A stretch of 21,303 nucleotides of DNA, taken from IMG/VR virus record IMGVR_UViG_3300030102_001489, positions 774 through 22,076 of that record. One strand, given 5' to 3'. Position numbers and translations under genes: made by a program. This stretch comes from a virus. A model generated the notes under the pieces. It made no database searches and was not told the DNA's origin. It saw nothing but the letters and a program-made list of their open reading frames with translations. Every line of letters begins with the position of its first letter. Positions within the stretch are counted from its first letter, which is position 1. Below, piece after piece: positions 1,045-14,799 of the stretch.

Positions 1045-3066
1045 ATGGCTGCAAGAAAGGAAATACTTTCAGATTTAAGCTCAAAGATAGCCGAAGGCAA
1101 CATTCGTGAAGCTTATCGTGACTTTGAAGAACTACCTATTGTAGATCAGATAGCTGTTAGTATCTCTCCTGGTGTTGGAGATGCTATTGCGGCCTTTGAA
1201 GTTGGAGAATTTGGTCGTAGAGCTAAAACCAACATACAAGACCAAGATAGGCTAGGTGCAGCAGGCAATATAGCCCTAGCTGGACTAGCTGGCTTAAGCC
1301 TAGTACCCTTGTTCCGATTCCTTCGTGGTGCAAAAGGTGTAACAAAGTCTGGTACGAAAGTAGCAGAGGCTCCCAAGAAAACCGATAAACCCCCTGTTGA
1401 AGAGCCGTTACAACTTTCTGCACCCAAGGATCTACCTGAAGTAGAATTACCAGAGGTTTTACCCTTTGTTTCTAAGCCAGCTAAAGATTTAGCCTATCAA
1501 ACAGCACAGGATGTGTTACCTTTACAATCAAAAGCTAGAAAGTTCTTACATGGACACTACAAAAAAATAGATCCAGATGTAAATATGCTAACGCCAGAAG
1601 ATTGGGTAAAAACACTGACTGACCCAAATAATGAAATACCGCTTGGAGAACTCAGAATACTTAACGTTTTAGACGAACTTAATCAAATACACCCAAAACT
1701 TATTAAAGAAGCTGCAGGCTCAGAAAAAATATCTAAAGGATTTCTTGATAATTACATGGCACGTCAACAAAGAGATGCTTTACAAATAAGAAACGTTCCA
1801 TCAGGTCAATTACAGAACCCTGATATAGAATTTGCAAACTCTGATCTAAGAAGATCACAACAACAAAAGCTATTCTTTGTCCGTGGTGCAGGTGAGCAAA
1901 GAAAAAGGGTTAATCATTATGAAAATTTACGTTTACAAAACGACAATGCTATTTATCCAAACAATGTGCCAATACAAGATGCGGGTAATTTACCACAAAG
2001 AATAAGTGGTGATAATACGTATGTTTTTAGTGGTATAGGATTTAACAAGCCGTTAAAAAGAGCAGAAGAACAACTAAGATTTGATCAAGAAGCATCGCAG
2101 AAAACTTTAGATGAAATAACAAAAAAACTTAAAAGTATTGATATTAAAGAAGATGATGTTTTTATGGATATTTTTAGAGTGCAATCAGATTTTGCTACTG
2201 AGGTTGGAAGAGATGTAAATTTTGTAAACCCTAAAATAGAAGCAGAAAAAGTAAAGAAAATACTTAGATATAACAAGTTTGTTGATGAAATAAATCCCAT
2301 ATTAGCTAGAAATCCAGATGAGCTTGCATCGATAAGAATAGAGGCTGAAGCTAGTAAAGACTTAAGTAAACTTGGCGTTACAGAATACACATTAGAACCC
2401 AAAGATTTAGAAGCTATAACTGGCAAATCATATTTAGAGTCATTAGATAAAACACCAGAAGAAATATTTTTTATGACTGAATCTGGACTTGGCGGCAAAC
2501 AAAAATATTTTGAAGCAGGAAAAACTTTTGATGCAAGAGCTAAAGCTTATTACAAAGATTTAATGACAAGTGATTCTGCTGGTATGTATATCCCAGGTAC
2601 AGAATTAAAAAAAGGTGTAACTATACTAAAGAAAGCGATTGTGCCAAAAGCAGATTTTGAAAATAAGTATAAGATAGATCCATATTTTGAAAAAAGCACA
2701 ACTAATGAAATGAAACTACCTGTAAGGACACACGTGCTGCAAGCTTATAAAGAGGGTAGAGATGGTGTGCATATAGGCAGAGCACAGGCTATTAGCGAGG
2801 GTGCGGATCCTGCAGAAAAAACTGGACAACGTGTTTTAGAAAAATATGTTAGAGGTGAGAAAGAGTTAAATCAAATAATTCAAGAATTAGGACTAGGTAA
2901 TCAAAAAAATAAAATTCTAACACAAGTTAAAAATACCGATACTGAATTTGACGGCACCTATCTTAAATTTACAGATGATGTAAAAAAAGCCATTGCAGAG
3001 CAAGGCATAAACGCATTTAAGCTTGGTGGACCTGTAGATATTGATAAAATGTTAGCCGAGTTATGA
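1045..3066 (+). CDS. Large unknown protein, 673 aa, possible virion-internal/ejection protein
   Basis: One long frame starts 6 nt after the previous stop; no clear Shine-Dalgarno precedes it. Residues 1-70 contain a conserved-looking segment (SPGVGDAIAAFEVGEFGRRA at 41-60), followed by a hydrophobic span at about 71-91 that could cross a membrane. The middle is Lys/Glu-rich with no motif I recognise. The C-terminus reads YLKFTDDVKKAIAEQG and then FKLGGPVDIDKMLAEL, ending on a Gly-Gly motif. By memory of marine phage proteins, this kind of ending (a YLxxT segment followed by F-x-x-G-G-x-V) occurs at the end of large phage polyproteins; that is recall, not a search result. Size, the single hydrophobic span and the position before the terminase suggest an internal or DNA-ejection protein. 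It overlaps terL by 4 nt. Confidence 0.85.
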   Translation: MAARKEILSDLSSKIAEGNIREAYRDFEELPIVDQIAVSISPGVGDAIAAFEVGEFGRRAKTNIQDQDRLGAAGNIALAGLAGLSLVPLFRFLRGAKGVTKSGTKVAEAPKKTDKPPVEEPLQLSAPKDLPEVELPEVLPFVSKPAKDLAYQTAQDVLPLQSKARKFLHGHYKKIDPDVNMLTPEDWVKTLTDPNNEIPLGELRILNVLDELNQIHPKLIKEAAGSEKISKGFLDNYMARQQRDALQIRNVPSGQLQNPDIEFANSDLRRSQQQKLFFVRGAGEQRKRVNHYENLRLQNDNAIYPNNVPIQDAGNLPQRISGDNTYVFSGIGFNKPLKRAEEQLRFDQEASQKTLDEITKKLKSIDIKEDDVFMDIFRVQSDFATEVGRDVNFVNPKIEAEKVKKILRYNKFVDEINPILARNPDELASIRIEAEASKDLSKLGVTEYTLEPKDLEAITGKSYLESLDKTPEEIFFMTESGLGGKQKYFEAGKTFDARAKAYYKDLMTSDSAGMYIPGTELKKGVTILKKAIVPKADFENKYKIDPYFEKSTTNEMKLPVRTHVLQAYKEGRDGVHIGRAQAISEGADPAEKTGQRVLEKYVRGEKELNQIIQELGLGNQKNKILTQVKNTDTEFDGTYLKFTDDVKKAIAEQGINAFKLGGPVDIDKMLAEL

Positions 3067-7036: not shown

Positions 7037-7243
7037 ATGATTAAAAGAACAGAAATAAATCAACAGAAAACACCTACAGCATTAAATAATAAAAACAGCT
7101 ATAGCAATAAAGGTAACGTATCTTTAAAAACTGACGCTGGTACGTTTGATGCTAATACCACACCTAAACCAGGAATGGGAAAAGGTAAAGCTAGAGGTAT
7201 GGGTGCTGCTGAGTTTGGTGGCAAGTTCTCTGGCATTTATTAA
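7037..7243 (+). CDS. Small conserved phage protein, 68 aa, Gly-rich C-terminus
   Basis: The ATG follows a 39-nt gap without a clear ribosome binding site. The N-terminal 35 residues are Asn/Lys-rich and probably disordered. The C-terminus reads GKARGMGAAEFGGKFSGIY; this RGMGAA-xx-GG-x-F type of ending is familiar from small proteins of uncultured marine phages that sit near the portal gene. The last base of its stop codon is the first base of the next ATG. Its position between portal and scaffold points to head assembly, but function is unknown. Confidence 0.8.
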   Translation: MIKRTEINQQKTPTALNNKNSYSNKGNVSLKTDAGTFDANTTPKPGMGKGKARGMGAAEFGGKFSGIY

Positions 7244-7449
7244 TGGATTCAGTTTGGCTTGCGAACAAGTTTTTAAAAGAACTTGAAGCCAGAAGAGAAG
7301 ACACGAAAGATGCTATGTTAGCAGGTTGCAAAGACTTCTCTCAGTATGAATATCTGCGTGGGCGGTACAGTTCTCTCGCCGACACAGAAAATATATTTAG
7401 AGAACTGCTAGGAAAACTACAACAAGATGACACAGATACAAGTACCTGA
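7243..7449 (+). CDS. Small helical phage protein, 68 aa
   Basis: A short acidic, helical protein starting on a TAATG overlap. The middle, KDFSQYEYLRGRYSSLADTENIFRELL in outline (Tyr-Glu-Tyr-Leu-Arg-Gly then a Leu/Glu helix), resembles small phage proteins found near portal genes in T7-like and marine podovirus genomes; these are uncharacterised. The last 23 nt overlap the following GroES-like gene in a different frame, so the two are likely translationally coupled. A role in the head or neck module is suggested only by location. Confidence 0.8.
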   Translation: MDSVWLANKFLKELEARREDTKDAMLAGCKDFSQYEYLRGRYSSLADTENIFRELLGKLQQDDTDTST

Positions 7450-7939
7450 TCATGTTGCAAAGTCTATCGAGGCAGAGCAAAAACTACAAAACAAAAATGC
7501 AGTAGAAACACCAACAGAGGATGGTGGTGCTACTAAAAAAGAAAACCCAGCATATGTCAAAGAATCAGCTAGGGTTTTAGATCCAACTCTTTTAGAAAAA
7601 TCAGTATTAGAGCGTATGCCACAACCAACAGGCTGGCGGATGCTTATCCTACCTTATGCGGGTAAGGGTGTTACTGATGGTGGTATTCACTTAGTACAAC
7701 AAACTGTAGATAGAGAATCTTTAGCTACTGTTGTTGGGTATGTGGTAAAGATGGGGCCAGATTGTTACAAAGACACATCAAAATTTGATAAAGCCTGGTG
7801 CCAAGAAAAACAATGGGTATTGATAGGAAGATATGCTGGTGCAAGATTCAAACTCGGCGATGAATCTGAATGTAGAATCATTAATGATGATGAAGTAATT
7901 GCAACAATACTAGATCCTAATGATATTCTTGCAGTATAA
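7427..7939 (+). CDS. GroES-like co-chaperonin
   Basis: Residues 68-170 match the Cpn10/GroES fold: GWRMLILPYA aligns with the first strand, GVTDGGIHL (81-89) with the GroEL-binding mobile loop and its Gly-Gly-Ile core, ATVVGYVVKMG (100-110) with the GxVxxVG strand, WVLIGRYAGARFKL with the VGDxVxFxxYxGxxxK strand, and IINDDEVIATILDPNDILAV with the C-terminal DEEVLIMxESDILA-type end. In the cell GroES caps the GroEL folding chamber; phage versions such as T4 gp31 adapt host GroEL to fold the major capsid protein. There is an extra N-terminal region of about 67 residues, polar and probably disordered, not present in GroES. No GroEL gene is in the window, so it would work with host GroEL. It lies just before scaffold and capsid genes, fitting a capsid-folding role. 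The start overlaps the preceding gene; AGGA lies about 15 nt upstream. Confidence 0.85.
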   Translation: MTQIQVPDHVAKSIEAEQKLQNKNAVETPTEDGGATKKENPAYVKESARVLDPTLLEKSVLERMPQPTGWRMLILPYAGKGVTDGGIHLVQQTVDRESLATVVGYVVKMGPDCYKDTSKFDKAWCQEKQWVLIGRYAGARFKLGDESECRIINDDEVIATILDPNDILAV

Positions 7940-7948
7940 GGAGAAAAA

Positions 7949-8896
7949 ATGGCAGAAGAAAACGCAAAAGTTTTAGAAGAAGAACAAGTCGAAGAGGGCG
8001 AGGTTGTAGAATTAGAACCAATAGAGGAGGAACAACCTAAAACTGAAATACCTATGGAGCCTGCGGACAAAGAAGCAGACGCTCAAATAGAGGATGTTTC
8101 AGACACGCCAGAAGCAAAACAAGAAGAAGAGCTTGAAGATTATTCAAAAAGTGTCCAAAAGCGAATAAACACGTTAACAAGAAAATTAAGAGAAGCAGAG
8201 CGTGGGCAAGAGTCTGCTTATGAATATGCAAAAAGGACTGCAGCAGAAAACGAACAGTTAAAAGCAAAAACCTCTAATTTAGACAGATCTTATTTAATGG
8301 AGGCGGAAAATAGGCTTAAATCACAAAAACAGCAAGCTACCACAGCATTAAAATCAGCACACGAGGTGCAAGACTACGATAAAGTTGCAAAGGCACAGGA
8401 GGTTTTAGCAAAAATAGCCGTTGAAGAAGCGAAAGTAAATGCTTCAAAAGTAGCACTAGAACAAGAACCACCCTTAGAACAAGCACAACCAACACAAATT
8501 CAACAAAATGTGCAACAACCAATTCAAGGTTATCAACCACCTCCCAAACTTGATGAAAAACAAGAGGCGTGGGTTGAAAATAATACTTGGTTTGGTGAAG
8601 ATGAAATAATGACATTAGCTGCTTTTTCAATAGACCAAAAATTAATTCAAGAAGGGTATGATCCTAAAACTGATGAATATTATAATGAAGTTGATAAAAG
8701 ATTAAGGATAAATTTTCCGCACAAGTTTGAAGAGTCTTCTGCTACATCGAAGCCTCAACAAAAGGTGGCTTCAGCAGGCAGAGTAGCTGGTAATACTAGC
8801 TCAAAAAGACAAGTTAAGTTGTCGCCAGCAGAAGTACAAATGGCAAAAAGATTAAACGTACCCTTAACAGAGTACGCAAAATATGTTAAAAGGTAA
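7949..8896 (+). CDS. Capsid scaffolding protein
   Basis: Scaffolds co-assemble with the major capsid protein to form the procapsid and then leave. The 315-aa product has the expected composition: residues 1-65 are strongly acidic, 66-170 are a long Lys/Glu/Gln coiled coil, 172-200 a Pro/Gln linker, and residues 208-257 a conserved helix region (WVENNTWFGED, then EGYDPKTDEYYNEVDKRL) that I know from scaffold proteins of podovirus-like phages. The C-terminal end is basic (KLSPAEVQMAKRLNVPLTEY), typical of the capsid-binding hook. The start has a strong site AAGGAG at 7938-7943, 5 nt before ATG, so high expression is expected. No maturation protease motif is present. Confidence 0.9.
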   Translation: MAEENAKVLEEEQVEEGEVVELEPIEEEQPKTEIPMEPADKEADAQIEDVSDTPEAKQEEELEDYSKSVQKRINTLTRKLREAERGQESAYEYAKRTAAENEQLKAKTSNLDRSYLMEAENRLKSQKQQATTALKSAHEVQDYDKVAKAQEVLAKIAVEEAKVNASKVALEQEPPLEQAQPTQIQQNVQQPIQGYQPPPKLDEKQEAWVENNTWFGEDEIMTLAAFSIDQKLIQEGYDPKTDEYYNEVDKRLRINFPHKFEESSATSKPQQKVASAGRVAGNTSSKRQVKLSPAEVQMAKRLNVPLTEYAKYVKR

Positions 8897-9988: not shown

Positions 9989-10891
9989 ATGGCAATAAAT
10001 AGAGCGCAATTAGCGAAAGAATTAGAGCCAGGTCTAAATGCTTTGTTCGGTATGGAATATGCCCGATACGAAGCTCAACATTTAGAAATTTTTGATACAG
10101 AAACTTCTGATAGAGCGTTTGAAGAAGAAACTCTTATCGTAGGATTCGGTAATGCAGAGGTAAAATCAGAAGGTAGTGGTGTCAGATTTGATACAGCTAA
10201 CGAAGGTTATACATCACGTTACACCCACGAGACAGTAGCTTTAGCTTTCGCACTAACTGAAGAAGCAGTTGAAGATAATCTATATGATAGACTCGGAGCA
10301 AGATATACCAAAGCACTAGCTAGATCTATGGCTAACACAAAGCAAATCAAAGCTGCAGCTGTATTGAACAATGCGTTCTCTACAGTAGGTGGAGATGGCA
10401 AAGTGTTGATCGCTACAGATCATCCACTAGGCGGAGGCGGTTCACTAGCAAACAGGGCTACCACTATGGCGGACTTGAATGAAACTTCACTTGAAGATGC
10501 TTTAATTAGTATCTCTACATTTACTGATGATAGAGGTCTAAATATAGCGTTGAAAGGTATGAAACTCATCGTTCCACCACAATTAGTGTTTGTCGCTGAC
10601 AGATTACTGCAAACTCCAGGTAGAGTTGCTACATCTGATAACGACATCAACGCTATCAACAATACTGGTATGATTCCTGATGGTTATGTTGTAAACAACT
10701 ATCTAACAGACACAGATGCTTTCTTCTTGAAAACAGACTGTCCTGATGGATTTAAGTATTTTGAAAGATCTCCAATGACAACATCATTGGAAGGTGACTT
10801 CGATACAGGCAACATGAGATATAAGGCTAGAGAGCGTTATAGCTTCGGATATTCAAACTTTAGAGCCGTTTTCGGTTCTCAAGGAGCTTAA
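9989..10891 (+). CDS. Major capsid protein (HK97 fold, Mu gpT-like)
   Basis: The protein that forms the icosahedral shell. Residues 140-155 (LIATDHPLGGGGSLAN) followed by DLNETSLEDALISISTF (162-178) and GLNIALKGMKLIVPPQLV (183-200) match the Mu-like major head protein family with the HK97 fold. The C-terminal part (MRYKARERYSFGYSNFRAVFGS) is the usual P-domain end. At 300 aa it needs no long N-terminal delta domain, consistent with the separate scaffold gene. The site AGGAG at 9976-9980 lies 8 nt before the ATG. A strong terminator follows 43 nt after the stop, so this gene ends a transcription unit with much read-through control. Confidence 0.93.
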   Translation: MAINRAQLAKELEPGLNALFGMEYARYEAQHLEIFDTETSDRAFEEETLIVGFGNAEVKSEGSGVRFDTANEGYTSRYTHETVALAFALTEEAVEDNLYDRLGARYTKALARSMANTKQIKAAAVLNNAFSTVGGDGKVLIATDHPLGGGGSLANRATTMADLNETSLEDALISISTFTDDRGLNIALKGMKLIVPPQLVFVADRLLQTPGRVATSDNDINAINNTGMIPDGYVVNNYLTDTDAFFLKTDCPDGFKYFERSPMTTSLEGDFDTGNMRYKARERYSFGYSNFRAVFGSQGA

Positions 10892-12198: not shown

Positions 12199-12498
12199 AT
12201 GGCTACCAGAAAACCAGCTAAACAGATCCGTAGAACAACTGGAAAAGGTGGTAATTACCGCCCCACTAAAAAAGGGGCGGGAATGACCCGTAAGGGCATA
12301 AAAGCATATCGTAAAGCCAATCCAGGCTCAAAATTAAAAGGTGCCGTTACTGGCAAAGTTAAAAAAGGTAGTAAAGCGGCAAAAAGGAGAAAGTCTTTTT
12401 GTGCAAGATCACTTGGTCAGTTAAAGAAAAGTTCTGCAAAAACAAGAAATAATCCTAATTCAAGAATAAGGCAAGCTAGAAGAAGATGGAAGTGTTAA
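12199..12498 (+). CDS. Highly basic small protein, 99 aa, no acidic residues
   Basis: By direct count 35 of 99 residues are Lys or Arg and none is Asp or Glu. The blocks KKGAGMTRKGIKAYRKANPG, KGSKAAKRRKSFCARSLGQ and the end RIRQARRRWKC are conserved in a family of small basic proteins that I recall from cyanophages, other marine phages and some giant algal viruses, with no known function. Two Cys (68, 99) could pair or bind metal. Such charge implies DNA or RNA binding. It is the first of six basic-protein genes; the next ATG follows its stop directly. A competing ATG at 12195 gives only an eight-codon peptide. Confidence 0.87.
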   Translation: MATRKPAKQIRRTTGKGGNYRPTKKGAGMTRKGIKAYRKANPGSKLKGAVTGKVKKGSKAAKRRKSFCARSLGQLKKSSAKTRNNPNSRIRQARRRWKC

Positions 12499-12789
12499 AT
12501 GGCTAAATCAGATCCAAAAGTAGGCACAGGTAAAAAACCAAAAGGGTCAGGTCGAAGGTTGTATACCGATGAAAATCCAAAAGATACAGTTTCAATCAAA
12601 TATGCAACAGTGCAAGATGCTAGAGATACTGTTGCAAAAGTAAAAAAAACAAAAAAACCATTTGCTAGATTAATTCAAATACTGACAGTTGGCGAACAAA
12701 GATCTAAGTATGGAGGCAAGCCTAGGCAAGCAGAAATATTTAGAAGAGGCAAAGATGCGATAAGAAGAAAACATGGTAGAATAAAATAA
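12499..12789 (+). CDS. Basic conserved phage/algal-virus protein, 96 aa
   Basis: The N-terminal block VGTGKKPKGSGRRLYTDENP (8-27) followed by KDTVSIKYAT and a helical part (DARDTVAKVKKTKKPFARLI, ILTVGEQRSKYGG) is a recognisable small family shared by T4-like cyanophages, uncultured marine phages and, as I recall, some nucleocytoplasmic large DNA viruses. A Pfam DUF exists for it, I think DUF5872, but I am not certain of the number. Basic overall, no catalytic motif. Its stop overlaps the next start by one base, so it is part of a tight translational chain. Function unknown; nucleic-acid binding is inferred from charge. Confidence 0.85.
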   Translation: MAKSDPKVGTGKKPKGSGRRLYTDENPKDTVSIKYATVQDARDTVAKVKKTKKPFARLIQILTVGEQRSKYGGKPRQAEIFRRGKDAIRRKHGRIK

Positions 12790-13112
12790 TGGCAAAAAAG
12801 AAATTAAATAAAGTTATCAAAGGCTTGCAAAAAGCAAGTAAAACGCATGCTGCACAAGCAAAAACTCTAAAGTCTATAAAAATGAAAAAAGGCGGTAAGG
12901 TAAAAAGCGGTGGCAAAATTTGTCCAGAAGGCAAAGCATGGGCAAAGCGTACTTTTGATACATATCCTTCAGCATATGCAAATATGGCTGCATCAAAATA
13001 TTGTAAAGACCCAAACTACGCTAAAGGAAGTAAGAAAAGAAAGAAAAAAGCCACAGGTGGTTTTGTTTCTATAAGAGGTCAAGGTATAGTTATGAAAGAA
13101 AGATTAAGATAA
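12789..13112 (+). CDS. Basic protein with YPSAYAN motif and C-terminal GG tag, 107 aa
   Basis: Three parts can be seen. Residues 5-33 are a basic helix (VIKGLQKASKTHAAQAKTLK) related to the separate 41-aa protein at 14799. Residues 42-79 hold a small conserved domain with CPEGKAWAKRTFDTYPSAYA and a second Cys in ASKYCKDPNYAK; the YPSAYAN motif is known from small phage and algal-virus proteins of unknown function. Residues 90-107 form a C-terminal tag, GGFVSIRGQGIVMKERLR, that resembles the tag on the next protein. KKGGKV and KSGGKI add two more Gly-Gly motifs. It joins both neighbours by 1-nt overlaps. Function unknown. Confidence 0.86.
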   Translation: MAKKKLNKVIKGLQKASKTHAAQAKTLKSIKMKKGGKVKSGGKICPEGKAWAKRTFDTYPSAYANMAASKYCKDPNYAKGSKKRKKKATGGFVSIRGQGIVMKERLR

Positions 13113-13555
13113 TGGGTCAGTTAGCAGAGTGGAGAAAACAAAACTGGGTGCGTATTGGTACCGATGGATCCATAAAAGGACCATGTGGTACAAGTAAAGA
13201 TAAAAAAAATCCAGATCGTTGTTTACCAAAAGCAAAAGCACAAAGTTTAAGTAAAGCAGAACGAGCAAAAACAGCTAGAAAAAAGAAAGCTGCTGGTAGA
13301 AAAGGTAAAACAGTTGTAGCAAATACAAAAAAAGCTAGAGTGTCAATGAAAACAGGAGGAACTATGTTAAAAAATAAACAAAAAGCAGATTTAAATAAAG
13401 ATGGTAAAATATCTTCATATGAGATGAAAAGAGGCATGGCGATAGAAAAAGCCATGAAAAAACAAAACCGTGCTAAAATGAAAGACGGTGGTTTTATAGC
13501 TAAAGGTTGTGGAGCTGTAATGAATAACCGTAGAAAAGTTACAACCATTAGTTAG
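13112..13555 (+). CDS. Basic protein with EF-hand loop and GG tag, 147 aa
   Basis: Residues 5-65 (AEWRKQNWVRIGTDG, then GPCGTSKDKKNPDRCLPKAK and SKAERAKTARKKKAAGRKGK) are a conserved basic domain seen in many phages, with two Cys that might bind metal. Residues 93-104 are a canonical EF-hand calcium loop: DLNKDGKISSYE has Asp1, Asn3, Asp5, Gly6, Ile8, Ser9 and Glu12 in place. Residues 126-147 (GGFIAKGCGAVMNNRRKVT) are a tag similar to the end of the previous protein. A strong internal ribosome site and ATG at 13364 could also give a 63-aa product holding only the EF-hand and tag. The function is not known; the calcium loop is seen, its use is inferred. Confidence 0.87.
   Translation: MGQLAEWRKQNWVRIGTDGSIKGPCGTSKDKKNPDRCLPKAKAQSLSKAERAKTARKKKAAGRKGKTVVANTKKARVSMKTGGTMLKNKQKADLNKDGKISSYEMKRGMAIEKAMKKQNRAKMKDGGFIAKGCGAVMNNRRKVTTIS
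13354..13359 (+). promoter_or_regulatory. Internal Shine-Dalgarno AGGAGG
   Basis: A perfect AGGAGG lies inside the 13112 gene, 4 nt before an in-frame ATG at 13364 (residue 85). It is also the coding sequence for Gly-Gly of a TGGT motif, so it may simply reflect the protein. Confidence 0.5.
13364..13555 (+). other. Possible nested gene product, 63 aa EF-hand protein
   Basis: Starting at the internal ATG would give MLKNKQKADLNKDGKISSYE and the C-terminal tag without the N-terminal basic domain. The perfect upstream AGGAGG supports it. The full-length reading frame is equally intact, so this is an alternative product, not a replacement. Confidence 0.35.
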
Positions 13556-13733: not shown

Positions 13734-14081
13734 ATGTTTAAAAGGACTAAATATTATGCAAGTGGCGGTCGTTCTAAAGGCAGTAAATACATGTCTAAAG
13801 GCGGTAAAGCTACAAAATATATGGCAAAAGGTGGTAAAGCTACTAAATACATGGCGAAAGGCGGAAAGGCTTCTAAGTATATGGCTAAAGGAGGTAAGGC
13901 CTCTAAATATATGGCAAAGGGAGGCAAGGCTTCAAAATACATGGCTAAAGGTGGTAAAGCGTCTAAATATATGGCTATGGGGGGAAAAGCCTCAAAATAT
14001 ATGGCTAAAGGTGGCAAAGCTTCAAAGTACATGGCAAAAGGGGGCAAAGCTTCCAAATATATGTCTAAAGGCGGTGCTTAA
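13734..14081 (+). CDS. Tandem KYMAKGGKAS repeat protein, 115 aa
   Basis: After a 17-residue start that itself looks like a degenerate unit (KYYASGGRSKGS), the protein consists of nine complete ten-residue units of consensus KYMAKGGKAS and a final eight-residue unit ending SKGGA. It has no Asp or Glu and about 33 Lys or Arg. It begins 2 nt after the previous stop, with AAAGGATTAATT before the ATG. The pattern Lys-Tyr-Met-Ala-Lys-Gly-Gly suggests an extended or helical basic polymer able to coat DNA or RNA, or a scaffold of many identical binding sites. Function is unknown. Both other frames through the repeat happen to be open, which is a by-product of the periodicity. Confidence 0.85.
   Translation: MFKRTKYYASGGRSKGSKYMSKGGKATKYMAKGGKATKYMAKGGKASKYMAKGGKASKYMAKGGKASKYMAKGGKASKYMAMGGKASKYMAKGGKASKYMAKGGKASKYMSKGGA
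13785..14078 (+). repeat. 30-bp coding tandem repeat, ten units
   Basis: Ten in-frame units (nine of 30 bp, the last 24 bp) encode KYMAKGGKAS with minor change. Reading each unit out, no two are identical in DNA: Gly codons vary among GGT, GGC, GGA and GGG, Ala among GCT, GCA, GCG and GCC, Lys between AAA and AAG. The only protein changes are S/A in position 4, T/S in position 10 and one K-to-M. Confidence 0.95.
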
Positions 14082-14109: not shown

Positions 14110-14799
14110 TTGTCTTATTTAATATCAAACATACCACAGTTTAAATGCTGGGTAAGAAAAGAATTTACAGCTAATCATCAAAAGTATCATGGTGAATACT
14201 TACATGCGTTAGCTTTTGCCGTGAATACAATTCCAGACAGATCGCTGTCTTTTCAGGTTGTTTTTACAGGCTGTGAAACAGATCTTGAAGATAACACGGA
14301 TGAAAATATACATGGTGGTGCTATGTGGGCACGTATGCCTATACAGGCATTGATAGCGGATGTGCCATTAGAAGAATGGCCTGAGCCTATGGAGGATCAC
14401 TTAGCACAACCCTGGGACTGTTTATCACATCATCATTCAGTGGTTGTTTTAGACCGTGTTAGTTCCTCACCCTGGATATGTAAAATTGACGGAGAGTTTC
14501 ATACGGGTACTTATATGTTTACCGTAGATTACACAGAACATAGTATTGCTGATGATTCTGCACAACATAAACAAAGTCATGTGCTATACTTAACTGACGC
14601 GGGTGAATACACTGGTAATTTTATAGCTTTACCTAACAATAGAGTTAGAGCTACAAATCCAGCTTTATGGCGTGTTGGTGAAGGTCCACCAGACTTTTCT
14701 CCAAGTCAATGGATTCATTCAGCAGAAAAACATGATAGTTATATGGATTCAAATATAACGTTTGACAATCTATATAACCAAGATGATAGGTATAAATAA
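14110..14799 (+). CDS. Conserved phage protein, 229 aa, TTG start
   Basis: The frame opens with TTG, preceded by AAAGGGGG. Family resemblance supports it: the beginning SNIPQFKCWVRKEF followed by a YHGEYLHALAFAV-type segment, a middle with WICKIDGEFHTGTYMFTVDY and an end with FIALPNNRVRATNPALW and PPDFSPSQW are a set of blocks that I recall from uncharacterised proteins of T4-like cyanophages and other marine phages. The composition is soluble and mixed alpha/beta with many Trp and His. No catalytic motif I can defend. It follows the repeat gene by 28 nt and its last base is the first base of the next gene's ATG. Function unknown; it stands between basic proteins and connector genes. Confidence 0.87.
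   Translation: MSYLISNIPQFKCWVRKEFTANHQKYHGEYLHALAFAVNTIPDRSLSFQVVFTGCETDLEDNTDENIHGGAMWARMPIQALIADVPLEEWPEPMEDHLAQPWDCLSHHHSVVVLDRVSSSPWICKIDGEFHTGTYMFTVDYTEHSIADDSAQHKQSHVLYLTDAGEYTGNFIALPNNRVRATNPALWRVGEGPPDFSPSQWIHSAEKHDSYMDSNITFDNLYNQDDRYK

Follow-up and report, generated by a model that had tools for sequence, protein, structure and literature searches.

A GroES-family co-chaperonin with a conserved N-terminal extension, associated with one major capsid protein family in HTVC023P-type phages and their relatives

Known phage co-chaperonins and the gene neighborhood

Folding of the T4 capsid protein gp23 requires phage-encoded gp31, which caps GroEL; the existence of gp31 has been explained by the large size of this client (~56 kDa), and gp31 is able to replace GroES for host clients (PMC6318259). 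Closer to the present locus, co-chaperonin GroES is among the 13 core genes of HTVC023P-type pelagiphages (PMC9599517), and the map of Roseobacter phages CRP-901/902 shows it as well (PMC10149686). A co-chaperone GroES is annotated in the two Pelagibacter phages HTVC023P and HTVC027P, and also in 023Pt_psg01 and DSL-LC04, the closest isolate relatives of the virus considered here, where the annotated gene order is portal, small genes, GroES, scaffold-like gene, two conserved genes and capsid.

The window, i.e., the whole stretch of 21,303 nucleotides analyzed here, corresponds to positions 774 to 22,076 of IMG/VR record IMGVR_UViG_3300030102_001489 (22,076 bases). The gene for the phage co-chaperonin GroES (Cpn10 family) lies at 7427..7939, where the sequence-only reading had placed it; like the other head genes described here it is found on the plus strand, and it specifies 170 amino acid residues from an ATG start. 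Directly 5′ is a gene for a 68-residue protein (7243..7449), which overlaps the GroES start by 23 nt. This overlap is kept in 157 of 165 relatives, 23 nt being the commonest length, and the same type of gene is immediately upstream of GroES in 151 of the 152 loci with room for it. Immediately downstream lies a scaffold-like gene (7949..8896; 315 residues; PHROG 28737, function unannotated), an arrangement seen in each of the 131 loci long enough to show it (126 identified by script, and five more in which small ORF overlaps occur). Its product is acidic with a conserved basic C-terminus, and from position and composition we infer that it is the scaffold protein. The major capsid protein (MCP) gene follows at 9989..10891 (300 residues, 32.8 kDa; PF25209, E 5.4e-14; PHROG 371 major head protein). 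The placement before scaffold-like and capsid genes had thus been correctly recognized.

The GroES proteins of HTVC023P (gp36), HTVC027P (gp55), 023Pt_psg01 and DSL-LC04 are orthologous to the window protein at 40-49% identity, occupy the same slot between portal/small genes and the scaffold-like gene, and accompany an MCP of the same family (65-69%). Both family match and gene neighborhood assign the window gene to the GroES of HTVC023P-type phages (PHROG 3188), and the MCP (65-69%) and terminase (57-61%) identities place the window phage as a sister group to them. At least 599 relatives of the gene are present in IMG/VR. The genome collection yielded only 59-62% relatives, on contigs that carry the phage head module and had been binned as Candidatus Pelagibacter and Rhodobacteraceae. 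The gene is already known and annotated: that it is a phage-encoded GroES stands, but it is no oddity of the window phage, since it is found, with a comparable extension, all through a large group of phages.

Several other ORFs of the window deserve mention. The large terminase is preceded by a 673-residue ORF (1045-3066) with no family match; the related phage DSL-LC04 encodes a PcfJ-like protein (L002 2207-4684) beside its terminase, which may or may not be a relative of this ORF. A run of four small and strongly basic ORFs (99, 96, 107 and 147 residues) is found at 12199-13555, the first of them matching the C-termini of several far larger uncharacterized PHROG phage proteins. A 115-residue ORF (13734-14081) is built up almost wholly from some ten repeats of the Lys-rich 10-residue unit KYMAKGGKAS (DNA period 30, 9.7 copies). 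Lastly, a 229-residue ORF with a TTG start (14110-14799) matches PHROG 3704 "ferredoxin" (E 2.6e-30); it has no Pfam match, which makes the name doubtful.

The Cpn10 domain and its mobile loop

The product of 7427..7939 is a genuine Cpn10/GroES-family co-chaperonin. Pfam PF00166 (Cpn10) matches residues 66-161 (7622..7909) with an E value of 4.1e-5 and 24 bits vs a curated cut-off of 21.1, and spans profile positions 3-93 of 93, which is the whole domain. PHROG 3188 "co-chaperonin GroES" gives an E value of 8.6e-14, and a family profile of 105 relatives compared with PDB sequences identified bacterial GroES 3nx6 (E 1.6e-9). Scores for the NCBIfam GroES equivalog and subfamily models stayed below cut-off, at best 22.4 bits vs 96. 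Weak single-sequence PDB matches to tRNA synthetases (E 0.04) gave way to GroES when the profile was used, and we regard them as chance.

An AlphaFold monomer model built from the family alignment has a core pLDDT of about 76-94, mostly 82-94, and its top 36 Foldseek matches in the PDB are all Cpn10/GroES or T4 gp31, the gp31 chains ranking 35-36. Structural alignment with VIA superimposes it on bacterial GroES 8wuc (Z 10.8, 92 residues, 23% identity) and on T4 gp31 from its complex with GroEL (Z 8.2, 2.0 Å, 72 residues). Alcohol dehydrogenases occur further down the VIA results, at Z under 7, as would fit the GroES-like domain known in these MDR enzymes. The GroES β-barrel, for which the sequence-only reading had proposed structure prediction as a check, is thus seen in the monomer model.

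Compared with bacterial GroES, the predicted β-barrel, a GGI-x-L mobile loop and the Cpn10 domain from end to end are shared, whereas the phage protein has some 64 extra N-terminal and 9 extra C-terminal residues, four more residues after the loop tripeptide (3nx6 alignment), and a conserved CYKDxxKFxxxWC stretch in place of the roof loop. The latter occupies residues 111-125 (7757-7801); W124 and C125 are nearly invariant across 153 relatives, and C113 and C149 are invariant within the window clade. The C-terminal strand of GroES is not the terminal DILAV, as previously supposed, but NDDEVIATI (about residues 153-161), which aligns with EDDILAVI of 3nx6 and closes the Cpn10 domain at about residue 161; LDPNDILAV is a further tail past the domain, its likeness to the GroES end being coincidental.

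The mobile-loop region covers residues 80-97 (7664..7717), within which residues 85-89 read GGIHL and provide a hydrophobic tripeptide, I87-H88-L89, of the GGI-V-L type. The loop noted earlier is thus present, and its motif is found in 149 of 153 relatives. As first remarked, GroEL is absent from the window; none was detected in its whole 22-kb record or in 21 other records searched, several of which are fragments, and the partner GroEL is consequently most likely that of the host.

Since the loop motif with its GroEL-contact tripeptide is kept in 149 of the 153 relatives, a working lid would be by far the simplest reading. It is highly improbable that the GroES fold now serves in a virion or assembly protein, such as a portal-proximal ring or a decoration protein, and has ceased to work with GroEL. 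The location among head genes and the added N-terminal segments would suit such a protein; against this, a structural protein has no need of the GroEL-binding motif, and DSL-LC04 has a different gene annotated for decoration ("cement protein").

The N-terminal extension

The extension had been described as 67 polar residues foreign to GroES. It is real and under selection, but it is not simply polar, since only residues 18-42 or thereabouts evolve freely. Judged by conservation and substitution patterns, it is tripartite. Residues 1-17 (7427..7477, the first 23 nt of which overlap the upstream gene) form a conserved terminal motif, M-x-K-I-x-V-P-D-H-V-A-x-x-I-E-x-E, with the conserved stretch proper at residues 3-17. 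Among 64 close sequences, P7 and A11 are found in 100%, H9 and E15 in 98% and I14 in 97%. Residues 18-42 (7478..7552) constitute a variable linker, probably disordered on its pN/pS and pLDDT values, in which both sequence and length vary within the same set. Residues 43-66 (7553..7624), the pre-barrel segment, conform to YVxxxARVLDPTLLxKSxLxRMPQ, with Y43, R49-P53, L55, R63, P65 and Q66 invariant in the 64 sequences.

The pN/pS ratios, which are rough because synonymous sites are near saturation, are 0.20 for the motif (codons 9-17, i.e., outside the overlap with the upstream gene), 0.97 for the linker (a comparison with 27% gapped pairs), 0.22 for residues 43-66 and 0.11 for the barrel. The AlphaFold model has a weakly predicted helix at residues 8-23 (pLDDT about 60), predicted disorder at 23-50 (pLDDT below 50) and short helices at 46-49 and 58-63 in the pre-barrel segment. 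Conserved ends with a neutral middle are what a tethered peptide would show.

These data also bear on the start of the protein. Initiation at Met64, the extension then being a miscalled start, might be suspected from the conservation of this residue in 98% of the close group. In view of the selection pattern along the extension we reject it as extremely improbable: the linker is neutral but codons 9-17 and 43-66, none of them in the gene overlap, have ratios of 0.20-0.22, and distant relatives, which mostly have LPxPxGWR or LPxPxGYR at this point and no internal Met, still possess an extension with a conserved motif.

Most GroES extensions of the HTVC023P-type phages and DSL-LC04 likewise begin with a conserved motif. 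In place of the KIxVPDHVAxxIExE of the window clade, the HTVC023P-like relatives have P-K-x-x-x-A-L-x-x-K-Y-x-x-E (pN/pS 0.40) followed by a neutral linker (0.98), and the conserved YV...ARVLDPTLL segment is a property of the window clade that the HTVC023P-type phages do not share. One or the other motif, strictly defined, is found in 140 of 153 distinct relatives; five of those failing the strict pattern show a near variant (PK...ALLDxYK, PK...GLLDxYK), which brings the total to about 95% of the 153. When the first 60 residues were shuffled, the second motif occurred in a mean of 1.65 of 76 sequences vs 76 of 76 real ones, a control for composition only, with a pattern written from the same sequences. 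Clades differ in their tail motif, and several members with an MCP of this family (L005, L007, L088 and L089) have only a short one or lack it, so it is not required everywhere for the basic function.

With regard to what the peptide might do, recruitment of the MCP or the scaffold protein is plausible. The tethered peptide might dock on nascent MCP or scaffold as its phage partner, or else on the exterior of GroEL, and docking by the tail might lead the lid to favor phage over host clients; both steps are more speculative than the lid itself. The specific proposal of a client-docking handle, in which the seven copies around the lid would capture nascent capsid (or scaffold) protein and pass it on to host GroEL, is tentative and in our estimation rather unlikely. 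Mimicry of scaffold or MCP by the tail was rejected, a position-matrix scan of the ORFs of eight related-phage loci, including the window, having given background scores only. Scaffold C-termini (VPLEEYAKYVK and similar) resemble the tail motif superficially.

Association with the capsid protein and the proposed role

To avoid selecting on the gene itself, loci were picked by MCP search and not by GroES. All 43 IMG/VR loci matched by the window MCP and having at least 3 kb of upstream sequence contain GroES, 1.97-2.26 kb upstream of the capsid ORF. This is also true for 63 of 63 divergent IMG/VR loci, collected with a distant MCP alignment led by ctpbd312, whose MCP is 37% identical to that of the window. 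In the phage collection 21 records carry this MCP, and Cpn10 was found in 17 of the 17 tested; the remaining four have the same MCP match figures as the tested records. Conversely, whole-record searches of eight phages with a related terminase and another MCP revealed Cpn10 in none (0/8). Because the phages are related, these numbers are not independent of one another; even so, no exception was seen.

The association could represent inheritance of a single block of head genes. Against this, the gene stays with the MCP in all 17 records, including vir526 and ct7ZZ929, in which Cpn10 is present outside the portal-capsid block. The head regions of these two had seemed free of Cpn10, and an archaeal host without a lid was considered; this idea was abandoned when the whole-record search located the gene elsewhere. 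In vir526, a virus assigned to Methanomicrobiales, it lies upstream of the terminase (BK063670.1 42883-43134) and not between portal and scaffold. In Caulobacter phage GB2A, gp089c (L091 3805-4236) is annotated as hypothetical; it is a Cpn10 in the same slot (PF00166, E 1.1e-10, above cut-off). Caulobacter phages RW, RLK and KcrB probably also carry Cpn10.

From the linkage to the MCP, the capsid protein would be the most likely client. We therefore propose, with a probability of roughly 0.8, that the phage GroES caps host GroEL through its GGI-x-L loop and helps to fold head proteins, most likely the 33-kDa MCP. The protein would dock on host GroEL by this mobile loop, and its most likely client would be encoded 2 kb downstream; we infer separately the heptameric lid, its binding to GroEL and the MCP as client. 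A general takeover of GroEL, in which the phage lid supplants host GroES or outcompetes it for broad phage or stressed-cell folding with no special tie to the capsid, is possible though considerably less probable. The loop is of the standard GroEL-binding kind, and gp31 can substitute for GroES on host clients (PMC6318259); the strict association with one MCP family, together with the absence from terminase-related phages with other MCPs, points instead to a head-specific client.

The capsid-folding proposal resembles the role of T4 gp31, to which the protein had been likened at the outset. The fold is the same and so, presumably, is the job of a phage lid for capsid folding, although sequence comparison with gp31 gave no significant alignment. 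Gp31 (111 residues) is without a comparable long N-terminal tail, and T4 gene 31 is located outside the capsid gene block, whereas the window gene is within the head genes. The clients also differ, gp23 being about 56 kDa and the window MCP only 32.8 kDa, so T4's reason of enlarging the cage is not applicable. A gp31-like role is still the most likely one, given the MCP linkage, without the cage-size reason; the analogy may hold for role and not for cage size. It speaks against a capsid lid that this MCP is small enough for the ordinary GroEL/GroES cage, so that host GroES might be expected to suffice. Instead of enlarging the cage, the phage lid might compete better for GroEL, line the cage differently or recruit the client via the tail.

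In the part of the viral-chaperonin literature that we covered, no prior statement of the strict capsid linkage or of the tethered peptide was found, and it is these two features that deserve the attention of specialists. The linkage provides a clean comparative case in which the presence of a phage lid follows a particular capsid protein, and not phage group or host, the recorded hosts of the lid-bearing phages being Pelagibacter, Roseobacter, Caulobacter, Alcaligenes and cyanobacteria, plus one virus assigned to a methanogen. If the docking reading is true, the phage GroES would be a substrate-selective co-chaperonin co-evolving with one capsid family. The question of why a phage should encode its own GroES becomes testable, beyond the cage-size answer given for T4, in small cultured phages with a 33-kDa MCP.
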